From: Agromyces allii
GTDB taxonomy: Bacteria > Actinomycetota > Actinomycetes > Actinomycetales > Microbacteriaceae
Assembly (NCBI RefSeq): GCF_009749385.1
Contig: NZ_WBIN01000007.1
Location: forward strand, 1-64,000
Reading direction: 5' to 3'
DNA length: 64,000 nucleotides
A model generated the notes under the pieces. That model had not been told where the DNA came from and did not search any database. It was given only the letters and a program-made list of their open reading frames with translations. Below are positions 9,023 to 28,651 of the stretch, in pieces. Every line of letters starts with the position of its first letter. The stretch's first letter is position 1. Both the position numbers and the translations under genes were made by a program.

Positions 9023-9053
9023 GCGTGCTCCTCCAGCCTGGTTCGGTGCGGGG

Positions 9054-13298: not shown

Positions 13299-13314
13299 GT
13301 AATATGTCACATAC
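13299..13314 (-). promoter_or_regulatory. Candidate GntR operator upstream of the hydroxyproline operon
   Basis: The plus-strand sequence GTAATATGTCACATAC contains the 11-bp palindrome TATGTCACATA. It matches a site at 27786-27801, before the Xaa-Pro aminopeptidase gene, at 13 of 16 positions. Both sites sit about 30 nt upstream of a minus-strand start codon. AT-rich dyads like this are rare in this GC-rich DNA. Confidence 0.6.
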
Positions 13315-13375
13315 CCACTGCGAGCACAACGGGTCGGTCCCCGGCGCCGCGCCCGCCCAGCCCTAGGCTGGCCGC

Positions 13376-14644
13376 ATGGCCGCCGACGACACCGACCGGA
13401 GCACGCCGTCCCCGCTGAGCATCGCGCTCGCCTCGGTGCTCGAACGTGCGCGGCCCAAGACCTCGGGAGCCGTCGCCTCGTACATCCCCGAGCTCGCACT
13501 CGAGGACCCCGACCAGCTCGGCATCGCCCTCGCGAGCGTGCGCGGCACCGTGCACGAAGCGGGCGACAGCGACGCCGAGTTCACGATCCAGTCGGTGTCG
13601 AAGCCGTTCGTCTTCGCCCTGGCGCTCGAGCAGTCCGGTCTCGCCGAGGTGACCAGGCACGTCGGCCTCGAACCGAGCGGCGAGCCGTTCAACGCCATCA
13701 GCCTCGACGAACACACCGGCCGGCCACTGAACCCCATGATCAACGCGGGCGCCATCGTGACGAGCTCGCTCGTGCGCGGCGACCGGGCCGACGAGAAGTT
13801 CTCGGTCATCAGTGCCGGGCTCTCGGCATTCGCCGGTCGTTCGCTCGACGTCGACGAGGCCGTCTTCGCCTCCGAGCAGGCGACCGGCGACCGCAACCGC
13901 GCGCTCGCCTACCTCGCACGATCGGCCGGAACGCTCGCCTCGACCGCCGAGGTCGCCACCACCGCGTACTTCCGCCAGTGCTCGCTCACCGTCACGGCCC
14001 GCGACCTGGCCATCATGGCCGCGACGCTCGCGAACGGGGGCGTGAACCCGATCACGCGCGAGCGCGTCGTCAGTGAGGACGTCGCGCGCTGGACCACCGC
14101 GGTCATGACGAGCTGCGGCATGTACGACGCCTCGGGCGAGTGGCTCGTGCGCGTGGGACTTCCGGCCAAGAGCGGCGTCGGCGGCGGCATCGCCGCGCTC
14201 CAGCCGGAGCAGTTCGGCATCGGCACGTTCAGCCCCAGGCTCGACGCGCGCGGCAACAGCGTGCGCGGCGTCGCCGTGCTCGAGGAACTCAGCGAGCGGC
14301 ACGGCCTGCACATGCTCGAGCACCGCGAGGCCCCGCTCTCCCCCATCGACGAGATCTCGGTCGGTGGCGCGAGCTCCGACGAGGTCGCCGGCGACGAGGT
14401 CGTCGCGATGCTCCGCGGTGACCTGAACTTCGGCAACGTCGAGGAGGTGCTCACCCGCCTCATGCCGCTGCTCGAGTCCGAGGGCCGGCTCGTGCTCGAC
14501 TTCGGGGCCGTCACGCGCGTCGGCGCCCCCGCTGTGCGACTGCTGCTCTGGGCTGCGGATGCCGCGGGCCCGGCGCCCGACGGGCTCCCCCGCGTCGAGC
14601 TGCGCGACCCCGACGGCGTGCTCGACGTCGATCTCGCCGGCTGA
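13376..14644 (+). CDS. glsA: Glutaminase A with C-terminal STAS-like domain
   Basis: This is a 422-aa protein. Residues 1-300 match the serine-dependent beta-lactamase-like glutaminase fold: the S-x-x-K pair Ser73/Lys76 in FTIQSVSKPF, the PFNAISLD and NPMINAGAI blocks, and the GLPAKSGVGGGI motif. It hydrolyses glutamine to glutamate and ammonia. The remaining about 110 residues (LNFGNVEEV... RLVLDFGAVTRVGAPAVRLLL) resemble a STAS domain, an architecture known for some bacterial glutaminases. The ATG lies 6 nt after TAGGCT (13364-13369), so the transcript is probably leaderless. The box is inside a small dyad, CCAGCC-TA-GGCTGG. Confidence 0.9.
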   Translation: MAADDTDRSTPSPLSIALASVLERARPKTSGAVASYIPELALEDPDQLGIALASVRGTVHEAGDSDAEFTIQSVSKPFVFALALEQSGLAEVTRHVGLEPSGEPFNAISLDEHTGRPLNPMINAGAIVTSSLVRGDRADEKFSVISAGLSAFAGRSLDVDEAVFASEQATGDRNRALAYLARSAGTLASTAEVATTAYFRQCSLTVTARDLAIMAATLANGGVNPITRERVVSEDVARWTTAVMTSCGMYDASGEWLVRVGLPAKSGVGGGIAALQPEQFGIGTFSPRLDARGNSVRGVAVLEELSERHGLHMLEHREAPLSPIDEISVGGASSDEVAGDEVVAMLRGDLNFGNVEEVLTRLMPLLESEGRLVLDFGAVTRVGAPAVRLLLWAADAAGPAPDGLPRVELRDPDGVLDVDLAG

Positions 14645-14927
14645 CGACCGGTCTTCTCCGCCTGCAGGTGTTCTTCTGCGCACGCACCCGTCGCCAACTG
14701 GTCCTCGATGGGACCGCGAGCCCTCGTCCCGAATGCCTCGAGGACTGAAAGCGCTGTTGCAGTACGCGTGCCCCTGCGGGCGTTTCCACCGGGCGGGGTA
14801 AACGGGCACCTCGTCACTCGCCTGGCTGAAGAGGATCATGCCGATGGCGAAAGCCTCCCACTACTCGACCGGCTTGCGGGCACATTGACTATCGATTCGT
14901 GATCGCGGCGACCGCTAGCATGCGGGA

Positions 14928-15275
14928 ATGAGTACAACGCAGGCGGCCTCCGTCCCGACAAAGACCGTCGCGACACCGTGGCGCGGCTATGTCTGGGCGG
15001 CCGTCGGAGGCGTCATCGTGGTGCCATTCGTGCTCCTCTTCGCGTTCAACAACTATTCCGCACCCGACGACGCGGCGTTCGTTCGTATGGCCTTCTCGCA
15101 AGTCGCCGGCGGCACGATCGCCATCGCGATGATGTTCACCCTCGTCGCTGTGAGCGTGGTGAAGCGGACCAAAGCGGCAACGCCGGTGCTTGTCGTGGCT
15201 GCGCTCCTGGTCACTCAGTACGTGGCTATCTCGCTCTCAGCTGGAGCGGATTGGCTGCTTCAACATCTCGGCTAG
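14928..15275 (+). CDS. 115-aa membrane protein, paralogue A
   Basis: This is a small integral membrane protein with about three hydrophobic helices (VWAAVGGVIVVPFVLLFAF, the central AGGTIAIAMMFTLVAVSV and VLVVAALLVTQYVAISL). The extracytoplasmic loop NNYSAPDDAAFVRMAF is highly conserved with the protein encoded at 24303-24650. An ungapped hand alignment gives about 60 percent identity over 115 residues. No family is recognised. The start is leaderless: TAGCAT at 14916-14921, then 6 nt, then ATG. It sits at the left edge of the accessory island, with its paralogue at the right edge in opposite orientation. Confidence 0.75.
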   Translation: MSTTQAASVPTKTVATPWRGYVWAAVGGVIVVPFVLLFAFNNYSAPDDAAFVRMAFSQVAGGTIAIAMMFTLVAVSVVKRTKAATPVLVVAALLVTQYVAISLSAGADWLLQHLG

Positions 15276-15315
15276 CCCTGTCGCCGCAGAGCGATCCCTC
15301 AACAGGACCCCTCGA

Positions 15316-15672
15316 TCAAGGTCGGTAATCCTCGAACTCCCAGTGGCCGAGTCGACCCAGGCGTTCCGCGATCTCGGCCCAGGTGTCTCCTTCCACGCAC
15401 TCCACTCTCAGTGCGAGCCAGTCGTGGACGGCCCGCTTGTCGAACTCGTCGAGGTTGACGACTACGTGATGCCTAGCGTCATAGATACCACCGGCGGCGC
15501 TGCAAGCGCGGGCGAGCCATTCGGGCGTGCAAACGGTGATGTCGAAGCTCTCGTCGCCCGGGCCGTCAGTAGGGCCGACGATAAATCGAGCGTGGAGACT
15601 GAATTCTGTCGGCTCGGCGGAGAGGCTCGCCGGATCCGGCTCGAAGGCAAGGCTTCTCAAGGTCGCGCGCAT
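15316..15672 (-). CDS. Imm8-family immunity protein
   Basis: This is a 118-aa protein. MRATLRSLAFEPDPASL, EFSLHARFIVGPTDGPGDESFDITVCTPEWLA and the WLALRVECVEGDTWAEIAERLG end fit immunity protein 8 of polymorphic toxin systems. The open frame extends further upstream without family-like sequence, so I use the Met at 15672; a Met at 15690 is an alternative. Family members neutralise contact-delivered toxins, but no toxin gene is visible nearby. It is one of several immunity-like genes in this island and may protect against toxins made by other strains. Confidence 0.7.
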   Translation of the reverse strand: MRATLRSLAFEPDPASLSAEPTEFSLHARFIVGPTDGPGDESFDITVCTPEWLARACSAAGGIYDARHHVVVNLDEFDKRAVHDWLALRVECVEGDTWAEIAERLGRLGHWEFEDYRP

Positions 15673-15763
15673 GAGTCGATCGTGCCGCATGAAGTGGATG
15701 CGAGGGCGTCGACCATCCGATAGCCGGTCGCCCGCTGGACGATCGTCCAGCGGCCAAGCCTTC

Positions 15764-16036
15764 CTAGTAGTTGGGGCCGAGTTCGTCGCGTAGCCGGCTG
15801 GTGAGGCGCTCGAGGTGGTCGACGACCCCACTCAGGTCGCTGCCGTCGTCGTCGGTCGTGTCTACACTCATCCGCTGTCGCAGCGTCGCCACCGCTTCCG
15901 GGCCGATCCTGCCGGATAGCGTCATCACCCGCGCTGCATCGCAGAGCCGGGCGAGCATCCGAAGGTCTCTGACATCCAAGTTAGACGGGTCTCTCACGGG
16001 ATCATCTTGCACGAGTCCAGCGACCCAGGACGCCAA
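15764..16036 (-). CDS. Hypothetical 90-aa protein
   Basis: I do not recognise this protein. It is predicted to be largely helical, with an Arg/Leu-rich core (DVRDLRMLARLCDAARVMTL and VVDHLERLTSRLRDELG) and an Asp-rich linker TTDDDGSD. The frame begins at TTG, and AGGGAT lies 6 nt before it, which would fit the leaderless pattern of this chromosome. It may be co-transcribed with the Imm8-like gene 91 bp downstream. No membrane segment or catalytic motif is visible. Confidence 0.45.
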   Translation of the reverse strand: MASWVAGLVQDDPVRDPSNLDVRDLRMLARLCDAARVMTLSGRIGPEAVATLRQRMSVDTTDDDGSDLSGVVDHLERLTSRLRDELGPNY

Positions 16037-16084
16037 TTAGGGATCCCTACCGCGCACGAGCGGCTCAGAGCGATCGCGCGAAGT

Positions 16085-16188
16085 CCTGCAATTTCTGCAG
16101 GTAGGAGTGAACGGCTAACGGCCGCAGAGCGACTAGCAATATATGGAGCCGTATAGCGAATTGCTATACGGTTGTAGATATCCATATA
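16085..16188 (+). promoter_or_regulatory. Cluster of AT-rich dyads upstream of the AAA ATPase gene
   Basis: There are three nested or adjacent perfect inverted repeats. CCTGCA/TGCAGG (16085-16090 and 16096-16101) has a 5-nt centre. CCGTATAGC/GCTATACGG (16149-16157 and 16163-16171) is centred on GAATT. TATATGGA/TCCATATA (16140-16147 and 16181-16188) encloses the previous one. The last ends 12 nt before the ATG at 16201. They look like operators for a dimeric repressor or an RNA cruciform; the regulator is not identified. Confidence 0.6.
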
Positions 16189-16200
16189 CAAGGGGGCCCG

Positions 16201-17373
16201 ATGGATCCGGTTCGCAATCCTTACTCCCCTGGAGCCGGCCGCAAGCCTGCAGCGCTTGTAGGCCGGGATGAGTCATTGAAGGAATGGGCGACCACGCTCA
16301 AACGAGCCGAGGCTGGGCGCTCGAATCAGCCGTTTGTGCTGTACGGTCTCCGCGGCGTCGGTAAGACGGTCCTCCTTTCGGAGTTCCGTCGTAACGCGGC
16401 AAAACGGGACTGGATCGTCGCGCAGATCGAGGCCGGCTCTGGGAAAGCTTTGCGCGAACTGTTGGGTGAGGCCTTGTATGCGCCACTAGCCGACCTGGCC
16501 CGGCCAGCCGCAGGCCGCCGGCTCGTCAAAGCGCTCAAAACCGCCCTGAGCTTCAAAGCCTCCTACGACACAACTGGCACGTGGACTTTCGGTCTTGACC
16601 TGTCCGACGCTGCCGGCGGCGGAGCGGACACGGGCATCCTGGAGACTGACCTTCGAAAGCTCGTTGTGGACCTCAGCGATGCGGCTGAGGAGGAAGGCGT
16701 TGGTCTCGCCATCTTCATTGATGAAGCCCAAGACCTCGCCCCCGACGAACTGACAACCCTCTGCGCAATCGCGCATGCGGCAGCCCAAGACAACTGGCCG
16801 GTCGGATTTGCGTTCGCAGGGCTCCCCAGCTTGCCTCGGATGCTTGCCGAGGCAAAGTCCTACTCTGAGCGCTTCCATTACACACATGTGCGGGAGTTGC
16901 CTGCGGAGGCCGCGGCGGATGCGCTAGCCATCCCGGCAGCTTCGGAAGACGCCGACTGGGAGGACGACGCAGTGGATCTAGTCGTCGAGGCCTCAGGCCG
17001 CTATCCGTATTTCCTGCAACAGTTCGGGCAAGACACCTGGAATGTTGCCGTTGGCCCCGTCATCACGGTTCGGGACGCGGAGCTCGGCGTTGCGAAGGGG
17101 AACAACCAGTTGGACAACGGGTTCTTCCGCGCCAGGTGGGATCGCGCTACTCCAGCCGAGCAGCAGTACCTCCGGGCGATGGCTTATGACGGTGACTCAG
17201 GAAGCCAGTCGGGTGCGGTCGCCGATCGGCTCGGCCGAGCGGGGACAAGAAGCCTCGGCCCCACTCGCGCCAATCTCATCAACAAGGGATTGATCTACGC
17301 GCCAGAGCACGGCGTCGTGGCGTTCACTGTCCCGGGCATGCCCGCGTTCATTAATCGGCAGGCGGACCTCTGA
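16201..17373 (+). CDS. AAA ATPase with C-terminal winged-helix-like region
   Basis: This is a 390-aa P-loop ATPase. It begins MDPVRNPYSPGAG, has Walker A GLRGVGKT (49-56) and Walker B IFIDEAQD (Asp-Glu 174-175), and ends in a region (VADRLGRAGTRSLGPTRANLINKGLI) that looks like a winged helix. I recall this as a conserved actinobacterial ATP-binding family, ORC/Cdc6-like in layout, often in variable regions; its function is not established. AAGGGGG precedes the ATG. The AbiV-like gene follows after 166 bp on the same strand. The AT-rich dyads upstream suggest tight regulation. A defence or mobile-element role is possible but unproven. Confidence 0.75.
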   Translation: MDPVRNPYSPGAGRKPAALVGRDESLKEWATTLKRAEAGRSNQPFVLYGLRGVGKTVLLSEFRRNAAKRDWIVAQIEAGSGKALRELLGEALYAPLADLARPAAGRRLVKALKTALSFKASYDTTGTWTFGLDLSDAAGGGADTGILETDLRKLVVDLSDAAEEEGVGLAIFIDEAQDLAPDELTTLCAIAHAAAQDNWPVGFAFAGLPSLPRMLAEAKSYSERFHYTHVRELPAEAAADALAIPAASEDADWEDDAVDLVVEASGRYPYFLQQFGQDTWNVAVGPVITVRDAELGVAKGNNQLDNGFFRARWDRATPAEQQYLRAMAYDGDSGSQSGAVADRLGRAGTRSLGPTRANLINKGLIYAPEHGVVAFTVPGMPAFINRQADL

Positions 17374-17539
17374 GAGACGTAGTCGTCGAGCGAACCGCTC
17401 AAGGATCCGCTATCGGACAAACCGAGGCGAGCGAGCCACCCAGTTCCGTCGCAGGATGCCGAATCTCTAGCCATGGCTCAACGCCCTGACCGGGCTGGGC
17501 TGTAGCACGGCGCGCGGCAATGACCTCTAATCTGGCAAC

Positions 17540-18169
17540 GTGACGATGCTGACGCCGACGACCGCTCGGGCATTGTGGCTGGCACTCCTCGAAAACGCAG
17601 CGCGGATCGTCATCGATGCAGACGCCCTGTTCCCATCACCACGCGCGCAGGCACTTATTGTCCTTGCGCAGGAGGAAGTGGGCAAGGCGGTCTGGGTGTC
17701 TAAGTCGTTCCGGGACGCTTGGTACCACGGTGACGAGACGCCGCGTGAGGTGCCCCAACTGAGTGAAAAGGCAGCTAACCACCTCGCAAAACTCATAGCG
17801 GCCGCAGATTTCGGGACCGACTTCGTCGAGGTCCCGGGCAATACGGAGCCTGTAGAGATTGAACTAGTGAAAACCCATGCTCCCGAAATGCTCGACGCCT
17901 ATCTGAAGAGGCTCGCCAAGGAGGACAACGAGGCCAAGATGAGTGGCTTCTACGTCGATCTCCGAGCGGACGGGTCCTTCACGGTGCCGCATGCGATCGA
18001 AAGGCCACTCTTGCGGTCTCAGATTTGGGAAACCGCCGACATGCTCCAGTGGTTCCTGAGCGAAGACCACCTTCTAGCCAGCATTACGGGCAAACCGGTC
18101 TCCTCGACCAAGGAAGTTGAGTCACTGCTCACAGTTGTCCTGGCACACGGACCGGGCGACGGACTCTGA
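17540..18169 (+). CDS. AbiV-family abortive infection protein
   Basis: This is a 209-aa, helix-rich protein. The N-terminal block LENAARIVIDADALF and ALIVLAQEEVGKAVWVSKSFRDAW carries the AbiV signature: an asparagine/aspartate-rich helix, then LAxEExGKA. AbiV-type proteins block phage development in lactococci, and the fold is related to HEPN domains; family membership here is by motif only. The start is GTG at 17540, 6 nt after TAATCT (17528-17533), so the mRNA is probably leaderless. It follows the AAA ATPase, and I infer a possible defence association. Confidence 0.7.
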   Translation: MTMLTPTTARALWLALLENAARIVIDADALFPSPRAQALIVLAQEEVGKAVWVSKSFRDAWYHGDETPREVPQLSEKAANHLAKLIAAADFGTDFVEVPGNTEPVEIELVKTHAPEMLDAYLKRLAKEDNEAKMSGFYVDLRADGSFTVPHAIERPLLRSQIWETADMLQWFLSEDHLLASITGKPVSSTKEVESLLTVVLAHGPGDGL

Positions 18170-18346
18170 GTATCAGCGGCGCTGACTCAGATGTCGGAGC
18201 TGCACCAGCTGGTCAGCTGGCACCCGCGCCTCGGGCCGAGCCCCGTCATTATGAATGCCCGGTGAGCGATCCGCCTCCGGGCGTCCGGTCGACGACCGGC
18301 ATGCGAGCTTGTCGTGAAGGCGCCACCGGCCCGCTAACGTCAGGGT

Positions 18347-18643
18347 ATGGAACGGTGGAACGGATTGACGATCGACGCCGGGGAACTCCGGGAGGTGTTC
18401 GAAAGGTTGATCACTCATCTGGAGCAGACACGAGGCGCGTCTGTCACCCTGCACGAGGACTACTTCTACTCGATGCCATACCCGGAAATCTACGACGTGA
18501 CGACGCCACCGCCGTCGCCGACGATCGGTCAGCTCACCGAATCGTGGGCCAACCTCCAAGGCACCAAAGACATCGACGCCACCGTCACGTTCGAACTGGT
18601 GTGGCTAGGCGACCTTCTCAAGGCGCTCGGGCACTTGGCGTAG
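18347..18643 (+). CDS. Conserved-looking 98-aa protein, immunity-like
   Basis: I do not recognise a named family. The protein is acidic and has a striking Tyr/Pro-rich centre, LHEDYFYSMPYPEIYDV, followed by SPTIGQLTESWANL and the closing LVWLGDLLKALGH. Its size, acidity and neighbourhood fit a small immunity or antitoxin-type protein. The ATG lies 6 nt after TAACGT (18335-18340), a leaderless promoter like those of neighbouring genes, which supports a real gene. No membrane segment is seen. Confidence 0.6.
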   Translation: MERWNGLTIDAGELREVFERLITHLEQTRGASVTLHEDYFYSMPYPEIYDVTTPPPSPTIGQLTESWANLQGTKDIDATVTFELVWLGDLLKALGHLA

Positions 18644-18725
18644 GTGGTCCACATCCCGACGAATGGATTCGCCCCGTGACTCTTCGAGGTTCGTACCCCG
18701 GTATCTCAGGTGAGACGAAGTCGTT

Positions 18726-18962
18726 GTGTGCATCCACGTTTTTGACCGGAGCCGCCCGGTTCTCTACGTGACCCGCCCAGATGGAGACTGGTGCGCACTC
18801 TGTGGAGACGATCATCTAAACGACGCGGGCTCGTACCGAGTCGTCGGTATCGGGCACCTGATCACCTACGACCCAGCGGTGGTGGAGGTCCTGGATCTGG
18901 CCCCAAACCAGGAAGCGGAACGTGCGGCGGTTGGGGAGCCGTGGACTCGATCAGAGTTCTGA
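18726..18962 (+). CDS. Small CxxC-containing protein of unknown function
   Basis: This is a 78-aa protein starting at GTG. It has DWCALCGDDHLNDAGSYRVVG, a CxxC plus DxH arrangement that could bind zinc, and an acidic end with VLDLAPNQEAERAAVGEPW. I have no family name for it, but the pattern reads as a compact conserved domain rather than a chance frame. It continues the series of small single-domain genes in the island. Confidence 0.5.
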   Translation: MCIHVFDRSRPVLYVTRPDGDWCALCGDDHLNDAGSYRVVGIGHLITYDPAVVEVLDLAPNQEAERAAVGEPWTRSEF

Positions 18963-19084
18963 TGCCACCTGACTGTCGAGCCGTGAGATGCGGCCACAAC
19001 TCTCGGACGACCACGGATCGAACGTTGGGTTACGTTATCCGCGGATCGATGACCGATCGCTTAGCGAGATTCGGGGCGCGTGCT

Positions 19085-19468
19085 TCAGACGCGCGCTCTC
19101 CAGAAGGTTGGTCGCCACCAGTACAGAGAGGTGAGGTCTTCCGGCCAAGGTGTGGTGGAGGGCCACTCCGTCTCGAAGGAATCCAGCCGAGTGTCGATCG
19201 CTCGCCATGCCCGCTCGCGGGCCTCGGCCGGTGTCGCATCGCGGACCATTCCAACGAAGCGTTCCTCCATCGCGCCGAGCGTTGAGTAGTTCCGTTGGCT
19301 CTCAACGAGAGAGGTGCGGTTTGCGCCTCCCGCAAGGTTGGGCCACCTCAGTTGGATGGCATCGTCTTCCCAGTAGCAGACATCGCAGATCTCGTAACTC
19401 CCCGGAGGTTCGCTGAAGAGCAAGTGGCCACAGCATGGGCACGGGAATCGAAGACTGGTTGCAACCAC
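19085..19468 (-). CDS. Cysteine-rich CPCC-family protein, immunity-like
   Basis: This is a 127-aa protein. The N-terminus CPCCGHLLFSEPPGSYEICDVCYWEDD carries four or more cysteines in the arrangement of the Cys_rich_CPCC family, a zinc-ribbon-like domain often listed among polymorphic-toxin immunity proteins. The remainder (GANRTSLVESQRNY, ATPAEARERAW) is helical and typical for the family. The start appears to be GTG. No toxin gene is adjacent. Confidence 0.75.
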   Translation of the reverse strand: MVATSLRFPCPCCGHLLFSEPPGSYEICDVCYWEDDAIQLRWPNLAGGANRTSLVESQRNYSTLGAMEERFVGMVRDATPAEARERAWRAIDTRLDSFETEWPSTTPWPEDLTSLYWWRPTFWRARV

Positions 19469-19586
19469 GAAACCAAGAGTGAGCGCTCGGTTCGGACAGC
19501 GTCAAGTGGGAGCGTTGCGGAGAGATCGGCCCGCAGATACTCGAGAGGTCACGGGTTCAAGCACCGACTGACGTCGTGTCTACCGA

Positions 19587-19838
19587 CTAGCGTCGACGGC
19601 CAAGCACTAGAAGCAGGATGCCGGTCGCTAGGAGCACCAGCCCGCTCAACCACACGAAAAGGACGAGAACGGTATTCCAGGACCCAATGTCGGCGATGGG
19701 TAGGCGTCCTTGGCTGGCGTAGAACGTAGCGATCAGGGCGGGCCCACCGATGAAGCCGAGAGCTCCGAAGATAAGGAGCGTGAGACCCCAAGCAGCGAGT
19801 GCTGCACTCCGTGTCGCCGTCGCAGCGGATGGGTCCAT
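19587..19838 (-). CDS. Small two-helix membrane protein
   Basis: This is an 83-aa protein with two hydrophobic helices (AALAAWGLTLLIFGALGFIGGPALIA and VLVLFVWLSGLVLLATGILLLVLG) and a basic GRRR end. I chose the ATG at 19838. A GTG at 19886 would add 16 residues without membrane character. No family is recognised. Confidence 0.5.
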   Translation of the reverse strand: MDPSAATATRSAALAAWGLTLLIFGALGFIGGPALIATFYASQGRLPIADIGSWNTVLVLFVWLSGLVLLATGILLLVLGRRR

Positions 19839-19982
19839 AGGGCTGAGGAGAGCGCCGGCGCGCCGGAACTCGAAGCCGTCGAGCACCCGCCATCGGCTGG
19901 CGGTTGCGTCGTTGGACGATCCATGAGCGGGCGCCCGCAGGCGGATCTGGTGCGAAGATTGGCGGCGAGAGGAGACGGGTCG

Positions 19983-20236
19983 ATGGAACTAAGTGGTTCG
20001 CTGTGGGATCTGACCCCGCTGAAGGCAATCGGGATGGCGTCGATCTCCATCTTCGCGATCGCTGTCGGCGTTTTGGTCGCCACTCAGCGTTCGAGGATAC
20101 GTACCCGGTTTGCTGATGCTTGGGGTGGCGGCGGGGCGTTGCCCGCGCTCGTCGTGGTGCTCGGGGCACGCTCTTCCTCCTCGCTGGGATCGGGATCGCC
20201 GCATTCCTCGTTGTTCTCGTGGTCCTCAACGGATGA
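19983..20236 (+). pseudogene. Frameshifted small two-helix membrane protein
   Basis: From the ATG at 19983 (preceded by GAGAGGAG), the frame encodes MELSGSLWDLTPLKAIG, then a helix (ISIFAIAVGVLVAT) and a basic stretch. It then runs into low-complexity sequence. The second frame, reachable by a shift within the G-rich tract 20121-20138, gives RGTLFLLAGIGIAAFLVVLVVLNG and a stop at 20234-20236. That stop overlaps the next ATG as ATGA. A basic loop joining two helices, plus coupling to the next gene, argues that the intact gene spanned both frames. A sequencing error or a genuine mutation could explain the shift. Confidence 0.5.
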
Positions 20237-20433
20237 GGATTCCAGACCTCAGCCCTCTCTCGCCATCGGGGTCGAAGTTCAATGCCGTGTTTTGCGGGGC
20301 CATGGCGTTGATCGGCGTGTTGACGGCACTTTCTGGCGCATCCTTCGGATGGGCGGTAGCTGGAGCCTTTGGTGCTCTCGATCTCGTGTTCATCGCGATG
20401 GCTGTGTGGGTGCACCGTTCTGAACCTCATTGA
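20233..20433 (+). CDS. Small two-helix membrane protein
   Basis: This is a 66-aa protein: MRIPDLSPLSPSGSKF, then two hydrophobic segments (AVFCGAMALIGVLTALSG and WAVAGAFGALDLVFIAMAVWV) and a short HRSEPH end. The ATG overlaps the stop of the frameshifted gene upstream by 4 nt, which decides the start; the longer frame from 20110 reads antisense-like residues before it. Function unknown. Confidence 0.55.
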   Translation: MRIPDLSPLSPSGSKFNAVFCGAMALIGVLTALSGASFGWAVAGAFGALDLVFIAMAVWVHRSEPH

Positions 20434-20540
20434 ATGGTTCATTCCAGCTAGCCGAAGACAGCTGATTGTGCCGTGGTCCGACCGCCCGCGGGCGGATCCT
20501 CCTAGGAGCATGGAGCGACACCTGCAGTAGGTTGATCGCC

Positions 20541-21020
20541 ATGAGAGCAGTCGATACTGCCGCGTCAAACCATGACCGCCCGGCGATCGACCCAGCAGAC
20601 ACCAACAGCATTGCCAGGGTCCGGTGGTATCGACGCCGAGCGCCGGCCGATTTCGACCGTTTCCTCCGCGGCGTCTGGTGGACCGGGCACGGGCAACTCT
20701 TCATCGCCGCAGGACTCCCAGTCATCGCCGTCATCTTCGTCGGCGTCGGCGTCGGGTTCGCGAACCGTGAGATGACTTGGTGCGGAGTGTTCGCCCTGGC
20801 GATGGCTGTCCCGTTCTGGTATTCCGGGATGCTCCTTCGCGGCACCGCCGGGTTTCTCCCGCCTGGGCCGGGCCGGCTCAACGTCTTCCAATGGGTCGAA
20901 CGGGTCGTGGTCCTTGCGATTGTCGTTCTGACCATTGCGTTCATCGCGATCGTCGGCGTCATCTTCGCAGTCTTCGTGATCTGGCAGGTCGTGGCGGCGG
21001 CCTCAGTCGGCCTGCACTAA
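20541..21020 (+). CDS. Membrane protein of unknown function
   Basis: This is a 159-aa protein with an N-terminal soluble part (RVRWYRRRAPADFDRFLRG) and four hydrophobic segments up to the C-terminus. The ATG at 20541 follows TAGGTT (20528-20533) by 7 nt, fitting a leaderless start, so I do not use the open frame upstream to 20466. No family is recognised. Confidence 0.65.
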   Translation: MRAVDTAASNHDRPAIDPADTNSIARVRWYRRRAPADFDRFLRGVWWTGHGQLFIAAGLPVIAVIFVGVGVGFANREMTWCGVFALAMAVPFWYSGMLLRGTAGFLPPGPGRLNVFQWVERVVVLAIVVLTIAFIAIVGVIFAVFVIWQVVAAASVGLH

Positions 21021-21174
21021 GCGTTCAGCCGATGCGACAACCGATGTCCTATAACTGGATCGCTGATCGGACAGGCGCAAGCGGATCGGTTTGCGCGCAG
21101 CTACAGACTCACTCTCAGTTGTGGCCGGCAGTACCGGCGCCAGCCTGACTGTCGAGAGACGGGTAAGACCCTTG

Positions 21175-21714
21175 TCAAAGGGCCTTCCTGAGAAGAAGCG
21201 AATTGCCGTGGACTTCGTCGTCCTCATGCTCACCTGTGCTTTCGAAACCCAGTTTCTCGAGAACGCGCAGCGACGCCCCGTTCCACGCTCGAACGGTCGA
21301 AGCAAGGTGCCGGTATCCAAGCGCACGTGCCCGATCGACGACCGCACCGGCAGCCTCGGTCGCATACCCGTGATTCCAGAACTCTCGAAGGAACTCGAAC
21401 GCAAGCTCGGGCTGCTCAGGGCGGCCGACGGTGTTCTCGATGAGCCCGCAATATCCGAGATCAGTCTCAGTACCTTTCAATCGCACGACGAGCAGACCGG
21501 GCGCCGGCACTTGCTCGTACTTTCGTGACCAGACCTGCAACTCAGCGACGCTGGGATGACCGTCACGGGTGAGGCGGCGGTGAGCGGGAACGCGAGGATC
21601 GCGTTCCGCCCAAAGCTGACGGTGAAACGGAGCGTCCGCGATCTGCCACGACCTCAGCAGCAGACGCTCGGTCTCAATGACCGGCATGGTCGACGGTGCA
21701 TCGTCCCGATCCAT
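21175..21714 (-). CDS. GNAT-family N-acetyltransferase (RimJ/RimL-like)
   Basis: This is a 179-aa acetyltransferase. The opening IETERLLLRSW, the central LAFEFLREFWNHGYATEAAGAVVDRA (acetyl-CoA-binding turn) and the closing VRAWNGASLRVLEKLGFESTG are the standard blocks of the ribosomal-protein acetyltransferase-like branch. It would transfer an acetyl group from acetyl-CoA to an amine; the substrate cannot be told. It stands alone in the island. Confidence 0.85.
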   Translation of the reverse strand: MDRDDAPSTMPVIETERLLLRSWQIADAPFHRQLWAERDPRVPAHRRLTRDGHPSVAELQVWSRKYEQVPAPGLLVVRLKGTETDLGYCGLIENTVGRPEQPELAFEFLREFWNHGYATEAAGAVVDRARALGYRHLASTVRAWNGASLRVLEKLGFESTGEHEDDEVHGNSLLLRKAL

Positions 21715-21808
21715 GCGGCAATTCTGGCAGGCCGGCCTTCCGTCCCCAGCATTGCATCCGTCACCAGACGTCCGAAAGCCGACCGGCTACTTGTGATGAG
21801 ATGAGCCC

Positions 21809-22057
21809 GTGTTCTCTCACGCACAGGTCGAAGCCGTTCGAGCCGCCTTCTCATTGGCCGGGTACGACGGGGTGCTCCGGGTTATGCCGCCGAGTTCTAG
21901 TTTCAGCGATCGAGTCTTCGTGATCCCCGCCGAACATCAGCCGCTCTCAGGAGACGAGCACCTTCTCGAAAAGGTTCTCTCCGCCGTCCTCGGTTTGCCC
22001 GCACTCGTCACTACGGACGTCGGCGCCCCCAGCGAACCATTCGATGCGGGTCGCTAG
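21809..22057 (+). CDS. Hypothetical 82-aa protein
   Basis: This is a short soluble protein starting at GTG (MFSHAQVEAVRAAFSLAGYDGVL). TGAGAT ends 6 nt before the start, a weak match to the local leaderless promoter pattern. It contains VFVIPAEHQPLSGDEHLLEKVLSAVL-like alternating helix and strand. I do not recognise the family. Modest support. Confidence 0.4.
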   Translation: MFSHAQVEAVRAAFSLAGYDGVLRVMPPSSSFSDRVFVIPAEHQPLSGDEHLLEKVLSAVLGLPALVTTDVGAPSEPFDAGR

Positions 22058-22133
22058 GGTCTCGCTCGCCGATCCCTCGGCGAAACAGTGCCACGATCGG
22101 CGTGCTGGTCGCACGTGCATCTAGGCTCGCGTC

Positions 22134-22553
22134 ATGATTCAGTCCGGGCGCGCCTCACTGACGGTCGTGTCGAGGGAGACCGAACCCACGCTCATCTCCG
22201 AGATCCTCGGCCTGGAACCGACGAGCATGAAGCTCCGAGGTTCCGCGAGCCGTTCTGGTCGGCTGTTGGACCACAACGTGTGGACAATGGACATCGACCA
22301 CAGTCGCAACACGGAAGACGACCAGACAGGGACTCGAGCGCTGCGTGAACTCGTCGCAGCTGCCCGCCCGGGAGTCGGTCAGTTTCAGCTCCCTTCAACG
22401 GACTGTTCTGCGAGGATCTGGTGGTCCGCGGACTCTGACTCAACGCAAGGCGGCTTTGTACTTCCCGTCGAGCTCGCTGCAGGGATCGCCGAGCTCGGTG
22501 TTGACGTCTACGCGACCGTCTACCTCGACGATGGTTCGAACAGCGGCGAGTGA
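22134..22553 (+). CDS. DUF4279-domain protein, immunity-like
   Basis: This is a 139-aa protein. LTVVSRETEPTLISEILGLEPT, the downstream NVWTMDI and the end VELAAGIAELGVDVYATVYLDD match the DUF4279 pattern: a beta strand, a helix leading to LGL-P, a Trp, then L-x-G-x-D. DUF4279 members are often encoded among toxin/immunity loci, but function is unproven. A leaderless start is well supported: TAGGCT (22122-22127), 6 nt, ATG. Confidence 0.7.
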   Translation: MIQSGRASLTVVSRETEPTLISEILGLEPTSMKLRGSASRSGRLLDHNVWTMDIDHSRNTEDDQTGTRALRELVAAARPGVGQFQLPSTDCSARIWWSADSDSTQGGFVLPVELAAGIAELGVDVYATVYLDDGSNSGE

Positions 22554-22692
22554 CCCTCGCGCACCCGCAGGCGGATCTGCACGCGGGCCGTCCGGTCGAC
22601 GACCGTTGGTGGGCGCCGAAAGCCTGGTGGACGCGTGGTGCGAGTTCTAGCATGGCGCTGGTTGATGCCGTCAGAGCAACCGGGGGTGCGCG

Positions 22693-23787
22693 ATGGACGA
22701 CACGATGGATCGTGACGGCGACAAGGCCGATGAGCAGGTGGTCGAGGACTTCGCGGGGTGGGTGTTCGACAGGTTCCTCGGCGGGATGGAGACGCTCTCC
22801 ATCCATATCGGTTCCAGCCTTGGGCTCTACGCGGCGCTCCGCGGTGCGCCGGCCACGGCGGCCGAGCTCGCCGCGCGGACCGGCATCGATCAGCGGTACG
22901 CGCGCGAATGGCTCGAGCAGCAGGCGACGGCGGGCATCCTCGACGTCGACGGCGAGGGCGACGACCTGAGGTTCCGTCTGCCCGCCGCGCAGGCTGAGGT
23001 GCTCACAGACCGCACGTCTCTCGGGTATTCCGCACCGCTGGCGGACATGTTCGCCGCGGTCGCGCTGCGAGTGCCAGACCTCACGGACGCCTACCGGTCG
23101 GGTCGAGGCGTTCCGTGGGCGGCGTTCGGCGCTGCCGTGCGCGATGGTCAGGGCGACATCAACCGTCCGTGGTTCGAGAACGTGCTTGCGAACGCGCTCG
23201 CATCCGTCCCGCGGGTGCACGAGGTGCTGTCGCGACCGGATGCCGGGATCGCCGATGTCGCGTGTGGTCACGGGTGGTCGACGATAGGTCTTGCCCGGGC
23301 GTACCCGGATGCAATCGTCGACGGGTTCGACATCGATGCCCCCGCCATCGAGGCGGCACACGAGCATGCCGCAGGGCTCGAGAACGTGACCTTCTCCGAG
23401 CTTCGAGGAGAGCAGCTCGCCGACGAGGGCGAAGACCGCTACGACGCCGCGTTCGTCTTCGAAGCACTGCACGACATGCCGGACCCCGTCGCCGTCCTCT
23501 CCTCGATCAGGCGCGCGGTCCGATCCGACGGTGTCGTGGTCGTGATGGACGAGGCCGTCGCCGAGACGTTCTCGCCGCCCGGCGACGACATCGAGCGGGC
23601 GATGTACGGATACAGTCTGCTGATCTGCCTCCCTGACTCGATGTCGATACCGGACTCCGTCGCGACCGGCACCGTCATGCGACATCCGACCCTTGAGCGC
23701 TACGCACACGAAGCAGGCTTCTCGGCAGTCAGTATTTTGCCGATCGACGGGTTCGCCGCCTTCCGGTTCTACCTGCTCGAGCGCTGA
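22693..23787 (+). CDS. SAM-dependent methyltransferase with N-terminal winged-helix domain
   Basis: This is a 364-aa protein. The N-terminal 100 residues (MFDRFLGG-like start, LYAALRGAPATAAELAART, YAREWLEQQATAGIL) form the dimerisation winged helix seen in O-methyltransferase-like and Rv-type methyltransferases. The SAM motif is IADVACGHGWSTIGLA, followed by VDGFDIDAPAI and the AAFVFEALHDMPDP motif. The substrate is not predictable. Its 3' end overlaps the tail of the convergent hypothetical gene by 19 bp. Confidence 0.85.
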   Translation: MDDTMDRDGDKADEQVVEDFAGWVFDRFLGGMETLSIHIGSSLGLYAALRGAPATAAELAARTGIDQRYAREWLEQQATAGILDVDGEGDDLRFRLPAAQAEVLTDRTSLGYSAPLADMFAAVALRVPDLTDAYRSGRGVPWAAFGAAVRDGQGDINRPWFENVLANALASVPRVHEVLSRPDAGIADVACGHGWSTIGLARAYPDAIVDGFDIDAPAIEAAHEHAAGLENVTFSELRGEQLADEGEDRYDAAFVFEALHDMPDPVAVLSSIRRAVRSDGVVVVMDEAVAETFSPPGDDIERAMYGYSLLICLPDSMSIPDSVATGTVMRHPTLERYAHEAGFSAVSILPIDGFAAFRFYLLER

Positions 23788-24245
23788 GCACCTCCCAGCC
23801 CGCACCGAGGTGCCGCAGTGCACCCGCCGGGCGACGCTGTGCGTGGTGACCAGGCTGTCAAATCGCTTCCGAGTTGAACCCCCTCGATGACGCCGGCCGG
23901 AGCGTAGACGCCAGCTGACAGGCTCGGGATCATTCCGCCGAGTCCGTCTGGCTCGAACTCGACGCCGCTCGTCGCCAGCAGGGCTGCCACCGCATCGAGC
24001 GGCTCGCCGAGCAGCTGCACACGCTCGCACGCGATCCGCGCCGGCTCGAGGAATTCCATCATCGTCACGACGCCCGCGGCAGAGTAGGTGACGATCACAC
24101 CGATCTCGATGAAGTGGTCGGATTCCTCGCTCAGCGGCGTCCGACGAAACGTTCGGTATGTGCCGAGCGTCCGTCTGATCTCGACACGATCCTGGCCAAG
24201 ACTCGCGACGCTGGTCGAACGCGAGCTGATGATCTGAATCGTCAT
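23769..24245 (-). CDS. Hypothetical protein, possibly immunity-related
   Basis: This is a 158-aa protein. The central part (EESDHFIEIGVIVTYSAAGVV, MMEFLEPARIACERVQLLGEPLDAVAALLATSGVEFEP) looks like a folded alpha/beta domain reminiscent of small actinobacterial immunity-like proteins. The last 30 residues (SPRTASPGGCTAAPRCGLGG) look unstructured and overlap the methyltransferase end, so the C-terminus may be altered by a frameshift. The start is ATG at 24245. Confidence 0.55.
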   Translation of the reverse strand: MTIQIISSRSTSVASLGQDRVEIRRTLGTYRTFRRTPLSEESDHFIEIGVIVTYSAAGVVTMMEFLEPARIACERVQLLGEPLDAVAALLATSGVEFEPDGLGGMIPSLSAGVYAPAGVIEGVQLGSDLTAWSPRTASPGGCTAAPRCGLGGAQRSSR

Positions 24246-24302
24246 ATCTGCAACCGCGCAATCACTTGGAGAGTGGCTCCCTTTGGGATGCAGGATGCGC
24301 GG

Positions 24303-24650
24303 TCAGCCGATTCGTTGCAGGAGCAGATCGGACGCCATCGACAGGACCACAACTGAGTACTGGATGACGAGCAGTGCCGCGACGATGAGAACAGGCGTCG
24401 CTGCCCTGGTGCGCCGGATCAAGCTCAGGGCGACCAGGGCCAGCATTGTCACGATCGCGATCGTGCTTCCAGCTACTTGCGCGAACGCCATCCGCACGAA
24501 TGCGGCGTCATCTGGTGCTGCATAGGAATTGAAGGCGAGCCCGAGCGCCAGGGGCACGACCACCACACCGACGACCGCTGTCCAGATGTAGCCGCGCCAC
24601 GGCTTGACGACGCTCCGCGGTGCATCAACGTCGGTGCGAACTGCGCTCAT
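24303..24650 (-). CDS. 115-aa membrane protein, paralogue B
   Basis: This protein has the same length and layout as the one at 14928-15275: three hydrophobic segments, the conserved loop NSYAAPDDAAFVRMAFAQVAG, and the basic turn IRRTRAATPVL. It has about 60 percent identity by ungapped hand alignment and lies in the opposite orientation. TAACAT (24657-24662 on the minus strand) is 6 nt before the ATG, a leaderless start. The family is unknown. The inverted paralogues bracket the accessory island. Confidence 0.75.
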   Translation of the reverse strand: MSAVRTDVDAPRSVVKPWRGYIWTAVVGVVVVPLALGLAFNSYAAPDDAAFVRMAFAQVAGSTIAIVTMLALVALSLIRRTRAATPVLIVAALLVIQYSVVVLSMASDLLLQRIG

Positions 24651-24936
24651 GACCGAATGTTAGCGGCCATCTTGAGGGGAATTCCGCGGCGGCGGTGTTC
24701 GAAAGAGCGTTCAGCGGCCATGACCTCGGCCTTCCGCCGGTGTTCTCTGGCGAGGGAACCTGGGACGCGACATCGGCCATCAACGTGAGGATCGTCTACG
24801 AACTTGCGGCCGCGGCAGACCGCATCAGCGGTGATCGCGCGTGCGGATCCTGCACTGGGCCAGGCACGTCCCACGTCGTCGCAAAGGTAGCGTTGAGCTT
24901 CCGAGCGGGTTGCTCTGGGATCGAGGAGGAGCGTCG

Positions 24937-25446
24937 ATGGGGTCTCGGGTCTGGAAGCTGTCGGCCGTCGGGCTGCTCATCGTGGCGATGAGTGGATGCA
25001 CCGCAGGCGACGGCCCCGGAGAGGGCTCGTCGACGACCGGGGGCGGCATCGAGATGGCCGTCTCTCAGACGTGCACTGCGGGATCCGCGGCGGAGTGCGT
25101 CTCGGTGCACGGCGAGTACGTGATGGTCGTCGAATCGGACTTCGTTCACGCCGGCGTCGAAACGGCGGAGGCCGTTTCGGATGGCAGCACCGATGCGGTC
25201 GACGTGACGTTCGACGAAGACGGAGCGAGCGTCTTCCAGACGCTGACCGCTGAGGCCGCCCGATCCGCGGGCACCGCACGCCTGGTGATCAAGGCGGGCG
25301 ATGAGGTGCTGTCTGCCGTCACGGTGGTCGAACCGATGCAGGGCGATACCGCCGTGATCGCCCTCCCGTCGGGCGTCGACCCCGATGAGGTGGCTGCGGT
25401 GATTCGCGGCTCATCGTCGGACGACGCCGGCCGCTCGGCGAACTGA
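24937..25446 (+). CDS. Lipoprotein with SecD P1-head-like domain
   Basis: This is a 169-aa protein with a signal peptide ending in a lipobox-like VAMSGC, so it is probably anchored outside the membrane. After a Gly/Ser-rich linker comes DVTFDEDGASVFQTLTAEAARSAG, RLVIKAGDEVLSAVTVVEPM and a final VDPDEVAAVIRG. This order recalls the SecDF P1-head subdomain, where a beta-strand is followed by a helix with LT and then RLVI-D-V. The resemblance is by eye only. GAGGAGG precedes the ATG at 24937. The 286 bp upstream hold no convincing gene. Confidence 0.6.
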   Translation: MGSRVWKLSAVGLLIVAMSGCTAGDGPGEGSSTTGGGIEMAVSQTCTAGSAAECVSVHGEYVMVVESDFVHAGVETAEAVSDGSTDAVDVTFDEDGASVFQTLTAEAARSAGTARLVIKAGDEVLSAVTVVEPMQGDTAVIALPSGVDPDEVAAVIRGSSSDDAGRSAN

Positions 25447-25475
25447 CGCGGACCACCGCCAGTGCCCGTCGACCC

Positions 25476-25500
25476 GCGGACGCCGGCCCGCGGCATCCGC
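25476..25500. terminator. Hairpin between convergent genes
   Basis: Arms 25476-25485 and 25491-25500 pair at 9 of 10 positions around a 5-nt loop. It sits between the ends of the lipoprotein and GntR genes, so it could serve both. Confidence 0.5.
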
Positions 25501-25531
25501 CCCACGGGCAGAGGAGACGCGCGAACCGCGC

Positions 25532-26203
25532 CTACTCGGCCTCGGGGTTGCCGGCCCACCAGCCGAGCGTGTGGTGGATGTGCCGGTGCATGAGGGCGCG
25601 TGCAGCGGCCGCGTCGCCGTCGGCGAGGTGTTGCAGCAGCTCGAGGTGCTCAGCGGCGGACTCGTCGAGCGCCTTCGTCTCGAGCATGTCGGAGAGGCCC
25701 ACGAGCCGGGTTCGCGAGCGCAGGTCGGCGACCGTGTCGACGAGCAGGCCGTTGCCGAGCAGGCGCGTGAGCGCGAGGTGGAAGGCCAGGTCGGCCTCGA
25801 GGTAGGCGCGCAGGTCGCCCGTGCTCGCGCCGACGACGATCTGCTCGGCGAGCGCCTGCAGCCCGGGCAGCTGCTCGGCCGGGAAACGACGCGCGAGCTC
25901 CTCCATCGCGGGCGGCTCGAGCAGTTGGCGCACCTCGACGATCTCGCGCAGCACCTCGGGACTCACGGTCGTGACGCGGAAGCCCTTGTTGCGCACGGGC
26001 TCGACGAACCCGCGGCTCTCGAGGTCGAGCATGGCCTCGCGCACGGGCGTGGCCGAGACGTCGAACTGGGCGGCGAGCGTCGGCACGGTCAGGAGTTCGC
26101 CCGGGGCGAGCTCGCCCGAGATGATCGCCGCCGACAGTGCCTGCTCGACCCGCGCGCGCAGGCTCAGCTGCGGTTCGACGGGGCGGATCGCCGTGACGGC
26201 CAT
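25532..26203 (-). CDS. GntR-family regulator (FCD/FadR type)
   Basis: This is a 223-aa regulator. The N-terminal winged helix is typical GntR (SAAIISGELAPGELLTVPTLAAQFDVSATPVREAMLDLESRGFV). An FCD ligand domain follows (REIVEVRQLLEPPAMEELA, DLAFHLALTRLLGNGLLVDTV, EHLELLQHLADGDAAAARALM) with the His and Asp expected for metal binding. The FCD group senses organic acids and amino-acid catabolites. It lies 82 bp downstream of the Xaa-Pro aminopeptidase on the same strand. I infer it binds the matching sites at 27786 and 13299 and senses a proline or hydroxyproline-derived compound. Confidence 0.85.
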   Translation of the reverse strand: MAVTAIRPVEPQLSLRARVEQALSAAIISGELAPGELLTVPTLAAQFDVSATPVREAMLDLESRGFVEPVRNKGFRVTTVSPEVLREIVEVRQLLEPPAMEELARRFPAEQLPGLQALAEQIVVGASTGDLRAYLEADLAFHLALTRLLGNGLLVDTVADLRSRTRLVGLSDMLETKALDESAAEHLELLQHLADGDAAAARALMHRHIHHTLGWWAGNPEAE

Positions 26204-26285
26204 CTCGATGTCCTCTCTGTCGGCGGGGTCTCGCACGCCGGGGTCGAGCGCGCCGTCGTGCCGCGCCTCGGCGTCGCCGTACCGG

Positions 26286-27758
26286 TCATTGCGCACGCAT
26301 CCACGCCTCGATGCCGGCCGCGTCGATCGGCAGCGCGGCCGACAGCACGTCCGAGCCGTCGGCCGTGACCAAAATATCGTCCTCGAGGCGAACACCGATG
26401 CCCCGCAGCTCGGGCGGCAGGGTCGTGTCGAACGCGTGGAAGTAGAGGCCGGGCTCGACGGTGAGCACCATGCCGGGGGCCATCGCGGCCTGCTGGTACG
26501 CCTCGTAGCTCGAGTGCGCGCAGTCGTGCACGTCGAGCCCGAGGTGGTGGCCGACGCCGCAGACGAGGTAGCGGCGATGGTGCTGCCCCTCGGGCGAGAG
26601 CGCCTCGTCGACCGAGACGGGCAGCAGGCCCCAGTCGGCGAGCCCGTTCGCGATGACCTCCATCGAGGCGGTGTGGAAGTCGCTCCACGGGCGGCCGGGG
26701 CCGACGGCCGCGAGTCCGGCGCGATGCGAGCGCTCGACGAGGTCGTGCACCTCGCGCTGGGCGGTGCTGAACGTGCCGGAAGCCGGGAACGTTCGCGTGA
26801 CATCCGCAGTGTAGAAGGTGCGGTTCTCGACGCCCATGTCGAGCAGGAGCAGCTCGTCGCGCTTGACCGGGCCGTCGCACCGCACCCAGTGCAGGGTCGG
26901 CGCGTGCTCGGCCGAGCCGACGATGGTCGAGTACCCGGGGCCGTTGCCGAACGTGCGCGCATAGCGGTCGAACGTGCCCTGAAGCCAGCGTTCGCCGCCC
27001 CACTCGATCGCGTTCGGGATCTCGCGGATGACGCTGCGGAACCCCTCGACCGTCGCGTCGACCGCGCGGCGCAGCTCGCCGATCTCCCAGTCGTCCTTGA
27101 TCATGCGGAGTTCGGAGAGCACCCGCCCGAGCTCCGTCGAGCGTCGGATGCCGCGGAGGGCCGCATGCCCCGAGTTCGCCGTGCCGAACAGCAGCACGTC
27201 GTCGCTCGGCCGCACGAGGTCGTCGAGACGCTCGAGCGGCTGCGCCTCGAGGTCGAGCGCCGCCGCCCAGTCGGACGCGTCGGGCGCCGATCCGACCCAG
27301 AGCTCGCCGTGGGCTGCGTCGCCGAAGAAGTCGGGGTTGCCTGGGTAGGCCGGGGCGGGCACGAACAGGGTGGCGTCGTGGCCCGACCCCGCGGGCGTCA
27401 GCACGACGACGGCGTCTTCGGCGGAGCATCCGGTCAACCAGAAGAAGTCGCTGTCGGGGCGGAAGTCGTAGTTGGTGTCGTTCGCGCGCACGGGCGCCCG
27501 GCCGGCCTCGACGACGATCGTGCGACCCGGCAGCGCCGCGCTCAGCCTGGCCCGGTGGGCCGCGGAAGCCGCGGCGACGCCCGGTTCGACGGGCGGCGTG
27601 CGGTCGGGGGCGTCCCATCCGGTGGCCATGTACTCGAGGAACGCCGGCACCTCGCGCAGGCGCGGCAGACGCGGATCGCGGGTCGCGGGCACCGGCATCG
27701 AGGAGGCCGAGGGGGTTCCGGTGGGGTGCTCGTGCGTGAGCGCGCCCGGTTCGTTCAT
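26286..27758 (-). CDS. Xaa-Pro aminopeptidase (M24B, PepP type)
   Basis: This 490-aa metallopeptidase has the aminopeptidase-P N-domain (DFRPDSDFFWLTGC) and a pita-bread domain whose metal ligands can be read: LLLDMG, TADVTR, GVGHHLGLDVHD, TVEPGLYF and RLEDDIL. It removes N-terminal residues that precede proline, and would accept collagen-like peptides rich in proline and hydroxyproline. AAGGAG precedes the ATG. The shared operator at 27786 links it to the hydroxyproline operon. GntR is encoded directly downstream. Confidence 0.9.
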   Translation of the reverse strand: MNEPGALTHEHPTGTPSASSMPVPATRDPRLPRLREVPAFLEYMATGWDAPDRTPPVEPGVAAASAAHRARLSAALPGRTIVVEAGRAPVRANDTNYDFRPDSDFFWLTGCSAEDAVVVLTPAGSGHDATLFVPAPAYPGNPDFFGDAAHGELWVGSAPDASDWAAALDLEAQPLERLDDLVRPSDDVLLFGTANSGHAALRGIRRSTELGRVLSELRMIKDDWEIGELRRAVDATVEGFRSVIREIPNAIEWGGERWLQGTFDRYARTFGNGPGYSTIVGSAEHAPTLHWVRCDGPVKRDELLLLDMGVENRTFYTADVTRTFPASGTFSTAQREVHDLVERSHRAGLAAVGPGRPWSDFHTASMEVIANGLADWGLLPVSVDEALSPEGQHHRRYLVCGVGHHLGLDVHDCAHSSYEAYQQAAMAPGMVLTVEPGLYFHAFDTTLPPELRGIGVRLEDDILVTADGSDVLSAALPIDAAGIEAWMRAQ

Positions 27759-27785
27759 CGTGGGATTCTCCTTCGACTCCTCGGT

Positions 27786-27801
27786 GTAATGGGTGACATA
27801 C
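27786..27801 (-). promoter_or_regulatory. Candidate GntR operator upstream of the Xaa-Pro aminopeptidase gene
   Basis: The plus-strand sequence GTAATGGGTGACATAC is 28 nt before the ATG at 27758 and matches the site at 13299-13314 at 13 of 16 positions (GTAATnnGTnACATAC). Proximity to the GntR gene two positions downstream makes autoregulation of the unit plausible. Confidence 0.6.
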
Positions 27802-27883
27802 TACGCTGCGGCGGCGCACGACGCTCGCGGAGTCGGGGATCAGTCGTCCAGCAGGTGGAGACCCGTCGTCGAGCCGGTGAGGA

Positions 27884-28480: not shown

Positions 28481-28651
28481 CGCGCGCCACCTCTCGTCGG
28501 CCACGGACACCTCGACGAGACGGGGGTGCGGATGCCGCGTGGCAGCGAACCACGCTAGCAGCAGGCCTTGCGGCCCACCGCGGCATCCGCCCGATCGAGG
28601 AGGTACCCGCAGGGCCTCCCACGCGAGCGCCCGCCGACGTAGCGTGGACGC

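Follow-up and report, generated by a model that had tools for sequence, protein, structure and literature searches.

The 64,000-nucleotide stretch of DNA from the soil bacterium Agromyces allii analyzed here (the window) encodes a hydroxyproline catabolic operon and, with 12 kb between that operon and gntR, a unit made of an Xaa-Pro aminopeptidase gene and a gntR/FCD regulator gene. Both units lie on the minus strand, and each is preceded by a short sequence resembling the other. Comparison across genomes makes it very likely that both sites act as operators for a single actinobacterial GntR/FCD repressor of the HypR type, the product of the gene at 25532-26203. One GntR regulon would very probably join the two units.

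Paired sites and regulator in the window

The window operon has the order DAO, Fer2, FAD oxidoreductase, DHDPS-family, proline racemase family and aldehyde dehydrogenase (Table 1). The Xaa-Pro aminopeptidase possesses PF05195 and PF00557 domains, its nearest solved structures are aminopeptidase P, and the residues that we take to be the M24 metal ligands are present, by eye, in an alignment to 4pv4. Operator 2 heads the second unit, whose two genes share one strand, with the regulator as the next gene downstream of the peptidase, as described in the initial annotation. That annotation had singled out two 16-mers, GTAATATGTCACATAC (13299-13314) and GTAATGGGTGACATAC (27786-27801), which are indeed identical at 13 of 16 positions. 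Their placement some 30 nt upstream of minus-strand starts also holds, with 34 nt from the end of site 1 to the DAO GTG (13264) and 27 nt from the end of site 2 to the Xaa-Pro aminopeptidase ATG (27758).

With up to three mismatches allowed, the pattern originally drawn from these 16-mers, GTAATNNGTNACATAC, matches the window only at the two sites, both exactly, against a chance expectation of 1.29. Across the 4.36-Mb genome, with up to two mismatches allowed, it recovers the two exact sites and two places with two mismatches; a reversed control gives three. The core GTARTATGTSAC (GTA[AG]TATGTSAC) occurs exactly only at both sites genome-wide, and one mismatch adds two further places (control, one). 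Since both patterns were derived from the sites themselves, the independent test is a matrix built from sites of other genomes. Our symmetric matrix of 19 positions was trained on 14 sites that other genomes have upstream of this DAO gene. It gives the paired sites the two highest scores in the window, 27.9 and 25.3 bits, ahead of 9.4 for the third best; the maximum over 30 Markov-1 simulated windows was 12.6. Further pattern matches in the same genome score at most 11.9 with the matrix in their loci, so none was accepted as an additional operator and, on the loci so scored, a larger regulon in this genome was rejected.

The sites align better in opposite orientation, site 1 on the plus and site 2 on the minus strand, with 11 of the 12 bases of GTA[AG]TATGTCAC common to both. 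Each imperfectly copies the 19-bp palindrome GTAATATGT-N-ACATATTAC. Three congeners, none a source of training sites, have this palindrome in perfect form (L120, L125 and L128). Both window sites also contain ATGTCAC, part of the HypR box.

The regulator carries GntR and FCD domains (PF00392, 3.3e-19; PF07729, 3.5e-25). In Streptomyces coelicolor, HypR (SCO6294) is reported to repress the hydroxyproline operon and to have the collagenase SCO5912 and SCO5281 as further targets, with an Asp and three His metal site at 138/142/186/208 and an ATGTCAC-type box (PMC6608401). Counted from Met30, residues E96, D138, H142, E185, H186 and H208 of the window protein coincide with the residue numbers published for S. 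coelicolor HypR, a comparison of residue numbering. The metal-site residues (D167, H171, H215 and H237 in the longer frame; minus 29, the numbers above) are invariant in 16 of 16 aligned orthologs, and in Streptomyces loci, L253 among them, the gene order is that of SCO6289-6294. From these features the window gene looks like an ortholog of Streptomyces HypR.

Table 1. Predicted operators and genes of the two units, with neighboring genes
Feature	Coordinates	Strand	Remarks
HypR operator 1 (predicted)	13299..13317	.	GTAATATGTCACATACCCA on +; upstream of hydroxyproline operon
HypR operator 2 (predicted)	27786..27804	.	GTAGTATGTCACCCATTAC on -; upstream of Xaa-Pro aminopeptidase-gntR unit
FAD-dependent DAO, D-hydroxyproline dehydrogenase beta-like subunit	12056..13264	-	first gene of operon
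2Fe-2S Fer2_4 small subunit (gamma-like)	11733..12056	-	
FAD/NAD oxidoreductase, soxA-like alpha subunit	10135..11736	-	
DHDPS-family, probable pyrroline-4-hydroxy-2-carboxylate deaminase	9221..10141	-	
Proline racemase family, probable 4-hydroxyproline 2-epimerase	8021..9028	-	below every NCBIfam equivalog cut-off
Aldehyde dehydrogenase, probable alpha-ketoglutaric semialdehyde dehydrogenase	6432..7901	-	
gntR/FCD regulator, proposed HypR	25532..26203	-	start taken as Met30 of longer frame
Xaa-Pro aminopeptidase (AMP_N + Peptidase_M24)	26286..27758	-	
Glutaminase	13376..14644	+	divergent from operator 1; within stretch splitting cluster in window lineage
GNAT acetyltransferase	27884..28500	-	start uncertain; synteny anchor before operator 2 (window lineage, G043, G059)

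Conservation of regulator, operon and operator

Among 60 Agromyces genomes, with regulators counted as GntR at 49% identity or more, GntR and DAO occur together in 33, GntR only in one (G035), DAO only in two (G002 and G003) and neither in 24 (Fisher p 2e-13, phylogenetic relatedness not corrected). The two genes lie at most 240 bp apart in 16 of the 33 and within ~6 kb in 11; Liv-type transporter genes stand between them in L120 and L127, those of the 11 with genes called. The remaining six comprise four split loci with a glutaminase between (the window, L096, L097 and L100) and two with the genes on separate contigs. In six Agromyces loci examined (L095, L101, L103, L104, L105 and L107) the Xaa-Pro aminopeptidase, GntR and hydroxyproline operon are contiguous, an arrangement consistent with the single regulon suggested by the initial annotation. 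All six operon genes are present in five of these loci, and L107 has no aldehyde dehydrogenase match.

A motif scan upstream of hydroxyproline genes in related genomes, which the initial annotation had called for, found the exact core upstream of DAO in ten close relatives (L095-L098, L100, L101 and L103-L106) and four more distant ones (L109, L123, L126 and L127). Operator 2 is found at the equivalent place in G007 and G054. Matrix sites scoring 18 bits or more are present in 32 of the 36 genomes examined, or 18 of 22 once the 14 training genomes are set aside. The four without such a site are G002 and G003, which have no GntR, G035, which has no operon, and G056, which has a divergent regulator. 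The examined stretches of the two DAO-only congeners (G002 in L133, 5 kb only; G003 in L102) contain no site, and these strains offer natural controls for unregulated expression.

The wider sample consists of the best 80 of at least 590 actinobacterial relatives, with loci selected by regulator, and is therefore no survey of peptidases. A hydroxyproline-operon match (at least 40% identity) is present in 70 of the 80 loci and an Xaa-Pro aminopeptidase (55% identity) in 15. At 50% identity, a prolyl-aminopeptidase-like gene is found in 18, GH127 in seven, three or more Opp genes in 21 and a Liv-type protein in 13. Over the 1.56 Mb of these loci the matrix yields 84 sites of at least 18 bits, 76 of them lying upstream of a mapped cluster gene at a distance of up to 400 bp, and a control matrix yields none; 55 loci contain such a site. 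Many of these wider loci, as well as L124, L126 and L127 near 19.2 kb, also carry second proline racemase-family and ornithine cyclodeaminase-family genes with operator-like sites nearby, perhaps marking another branch of the regulon (trans-3-hydroxyproline?).

The upstream module and the source of hydroxyproline

Hydroxyproline occurs in plant walls, in extensins, and in collagen. The initial annotation favored collagen-like peptides as the source, but no M9 collagenase was matched in the window genome, and in seven congeners the peptidase-containing operon has genes for a GH127 beta-L-arabinofuranosidase and a peptide importer at its start, an arrangement pointing to plant hydroxyproline-rich glycoproteins. 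Orthologs of the G043 GH127 protein are found in 7 of the 60 Agromyces genomes (G001, G022, G039, G043, G046, G053 and G057); the other six are 69-84% identical to it, and further GH127 matches in the 60 genomes reach at most 46%. An operator site precedes the GH127 gene in all seven, and every locus maps GH127, OppA, OppC, OppB, OppD, OppF, a prolyl-aminopeptidase-related alpha/beta hydrolase and Xaa-Pro aminopeptidase. By eye, GH127 and the peptidases appear to have no signal peptide and OppA a lipoprotein one. The GH127 of relatives (PF07944, 1.6e-82) keeps ETCA and CxCCPPN against 4qjy, presumably the zinc/cysteine site of the family, and the nearest PDB entries are beta-L-arabinofuranosidases. 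Its sole NCBIfam match is aceric acid hydrolase, at 355 of 950 bits and far below the cut-off, and its substrate specificity is uncertain. The GH127/Opp module recurs in Actinobacteria outside Agromyces; across many Actinobacteria the operator hints at what GH127, peptide-importer and peptidase genes may do.

Gene order around the GNAT anchor places different modules behind the operator: GNAT, operator, GH127 in G043; GNAT, operator, Xaa-Pro aminopeptidase in the window; and GNAT, operator, Liv-type transporter in G059. Of six genomes searched, G059 alone yields the Liv-type binding protein; another match lies near the locus in G004. A copy of the module elsewhere in the window genome (G000) was considered and rejected. 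GH127 is present there only as a 44% paralog whose locus has no operator site, and the prolyl-aminopeptidase-like query matches G043 and G053 and finds nothing in G000, G007, G054 or G059. OppA-like proteins reach at most 32% identity in G000 and 34% across those four genomes, compared with 100% and 84% in G043 and G053. With the module missing and the GNAT/operator order kept, we infer a loss of the module behind a retained operator; lacking its orthologs, the window strain would hold at most a remnant of the peptide route.

Collagen as the substrate served by the regulon is improbable, although the evidence is not one-sided. Streptomyces HypR reportedly represses an M9 collagenase gene (PMC6608401), and M9 collagenase is found in 6 of the 60 Agromyces genomes; none of 14 named control genomes matched in this search. 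In all six, a sequence resembling the operator lies ~1.2 kb ahead of the M9 domain and scores 15.3-20.8 bits, where 95% of 200 shuffled 4-kb maxima were 8.7 or lower and the highest was 20.0. The distance from this site to the gene start, as read in one genome only, is ~100 bp. None of the six has any GH127 match, and conversely no M9 match was found in the seven genomes with the GH127 ortholog, whose module before Xaa-Pro aminopeptidase includes the GH127 enzyme. Across lineages the regulon thus appears to differ, with an arm for collagen in one and probably one for plant glycopeptides in another; the window strain has neither the collagenase nor the GH127 arm. In close relatives the same type of switch stands upstream of machinery that looks suited to plant cell-wall or collagen peptides.

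Somewhat favored on balance is a broader proposal, in which actinobacterial HypR would govern a full plant hydroxyproline-glycoprotein pathway. Opp would import Hyp-arabinoside peptides, GH127 would remove their arabinose inside the cell, a prolyl-aminopeptidase-like enzyme would trim the peptides together with Xaa-Pro aminopeptidase, and the hydroxyproline set free would be oxidized. The operator would be constant and the module behind it exchanged (GH127/Opp, a Liv-type transporter or the peptidase alone), with collagenase as an alternative arm and the window strain stripped.

Proposed mechanism, alternatives and known HypR systems

The right half of operator 1 coincides with a possible -10 (CATATT on the minus strand) of the hydroxyproline operon. 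In 9 of 12 aligned sequences this hexamer lies 17 nt from TTGTGC, TTGAAT or TTCCAT; L101, L105 and L107 do not fit. We propose that HypR, bound to the palindrome over this element, would block the six-gene operon and would also block the Xaa-Pro aminopeptidase-hypR unit. As an operator heads that unit, hypR's own gene would be repressed as well. A hydroxyproline-derived signal would release HypR, raising peptide cleavage in step with the breakdown of hydroxyproline to alpha-ketoglutarate. The probable ancestral cluster comprised an operator, GH127, an Opp-type importer, prolyl-aminopeptidase-like and Xaa-Pro aminopeptidase genes, hypR, a second operator and the hydroxyproline operon. The window lineage lacks the upstream module, its operator now stands directly upstream of the peptidase, and a glutaminase-containing stretch parts hypR from the operon. 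Operator 1 also lies 58 bases upstream of the divergent glutaminase start (window 13317-13376).

Several observations weigh against one HypR regulon at both sites. G016 has a weak DAO site (13.5), and its sole hit of at least 18 bits, at 18.3, lies away from DAO. G056, with a GntR of 50% identity, has no such operator, and G035 (L110 and L160) has a 70% identical GntR with operon match and operator absent from the examined stretches. Of the 80 wider loci, 25 lack any site scoring 18 bits or more. For the 14 genomes that gave training sites the matrix is in part circular, the -35/-10 reading was made by eye on aligned relatives, and a strict sigma-70 promoter scan found no promoter at either site. 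Promoter 2 may be weak, as the TTGAC element that eight relatives have upstream of the leader operon was not found in the window. In L131, from G056, a different perfect palindrome, TAGGTACAATTGCAATTGTACCTA, lies upstream of the DHDPS-family gene start at 8046, and the regulator of this strain may have changed its operator.

The unseen TTGAC element, together with the missing GH127/importer/prolyl-peptidase module, would fit operator 2 being a remnant, with HypR still controlling the operon and the peptidase on a weak or unrelated promoter, the link having decayed in the window strain. We regard this as unlikely, because the operator 2 site is present in three genomes (G000, G007 and G054) and its right half, CCCATTAC, is nearer the palindrome than the relatives' CCCACTAC/T, as if maintained. 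That a transcription factor other than the window GntR reads the palindrome is less probable still. Binding of GntR is a prediction, G000 has many loosely similar genes (45 candidates at first look), and G016 and G056 have GntR yet a weak or absent DAO site; the site is nevertheless absent in the two congeners with DAO and without GntR, and Streptomyces HypR is reported to bind ATGTCAC boxes. Chance resemblance between two short sites within 64 kb, where the initial pattern had been built from the data themselves, is negligible as an explanation and was rejected given the uniqueness of the pattern, scores far above the null with a matrix from other genomes, and a position conserved in relatives.

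One HypR regulon over both units resembles the S. coelicolor system, as described in PMC6608401, in its GntR/FCD regulator, metal-site numbering, ATGTCAC box, hydroxyproline operon target and control of an upstream peptide-releasing enzyme, there a collagenase. The order of SCO6289-6293 is that of the window operon, which adds aldehyde dehydrogenase last. In contrast, operator symmetry was called unclear there, whereas the Agromyces operator is a clearer 19-bp palindrome, and the second Agromyces unit is Xaa-Pro aminopeptidase-hypR, accompanied in relatives by GH127 and a peptide importer. In Proteobacteria (Alteromonadales, Aeromonas), predicted HypR regulons likewise join hydroxyproline catabolism with the proline (di)peptidases PrdP, AmpP and YpdF, and those of Alteromonadales include collagenases too; these systems, likened by description, differ in phylum and gene context, with no GH127 in section 11 of that report (PMC5343134). 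HypBA1, HypBA2 and HypAA of Bifidobacterium and Xanthomonas share the GH127 enzyme, theirs acting on Araf-beta-Hyp of plant glycoproteins, and are tied to hydroxyproline-linked arabinosides with GH121 and GH43 partners (PMC7263609, PMC6085000). The Agromyces GH127, of putative substrate, instead stands with peptidases and hydroxyproline catabolism.

The link between peptide degradation and hydroxyproline use drawn in the initial annotation is therefore supported as a HypR regulon and is not new, since regulons with proline peptidases (PMC5343134) and collagenase (PMC6608401) are in print. In the literature searched, mostly without subscription papers, we found no report joining HypR with GH127 or extensin use. 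The regulon is thus of a known kind, and its plant-glycopeptide variant is apparently undescribed. Release of hydroxyproline from glycosylated proline-rich peptides by soil bacteria, tied to its breakdown, seems little described in the same literature. One operator marking the gene set of each genome would allow plant-glycopeptide versus collagen use to be predicted for a species.

Within the operon, homopolymer runs of G and C fill ~140 bases (window 9060-9205) separating the DHDPS-family gene from the racemase gene; the gap at this place is short in relatives, and the runs are a possible assembly artefact.

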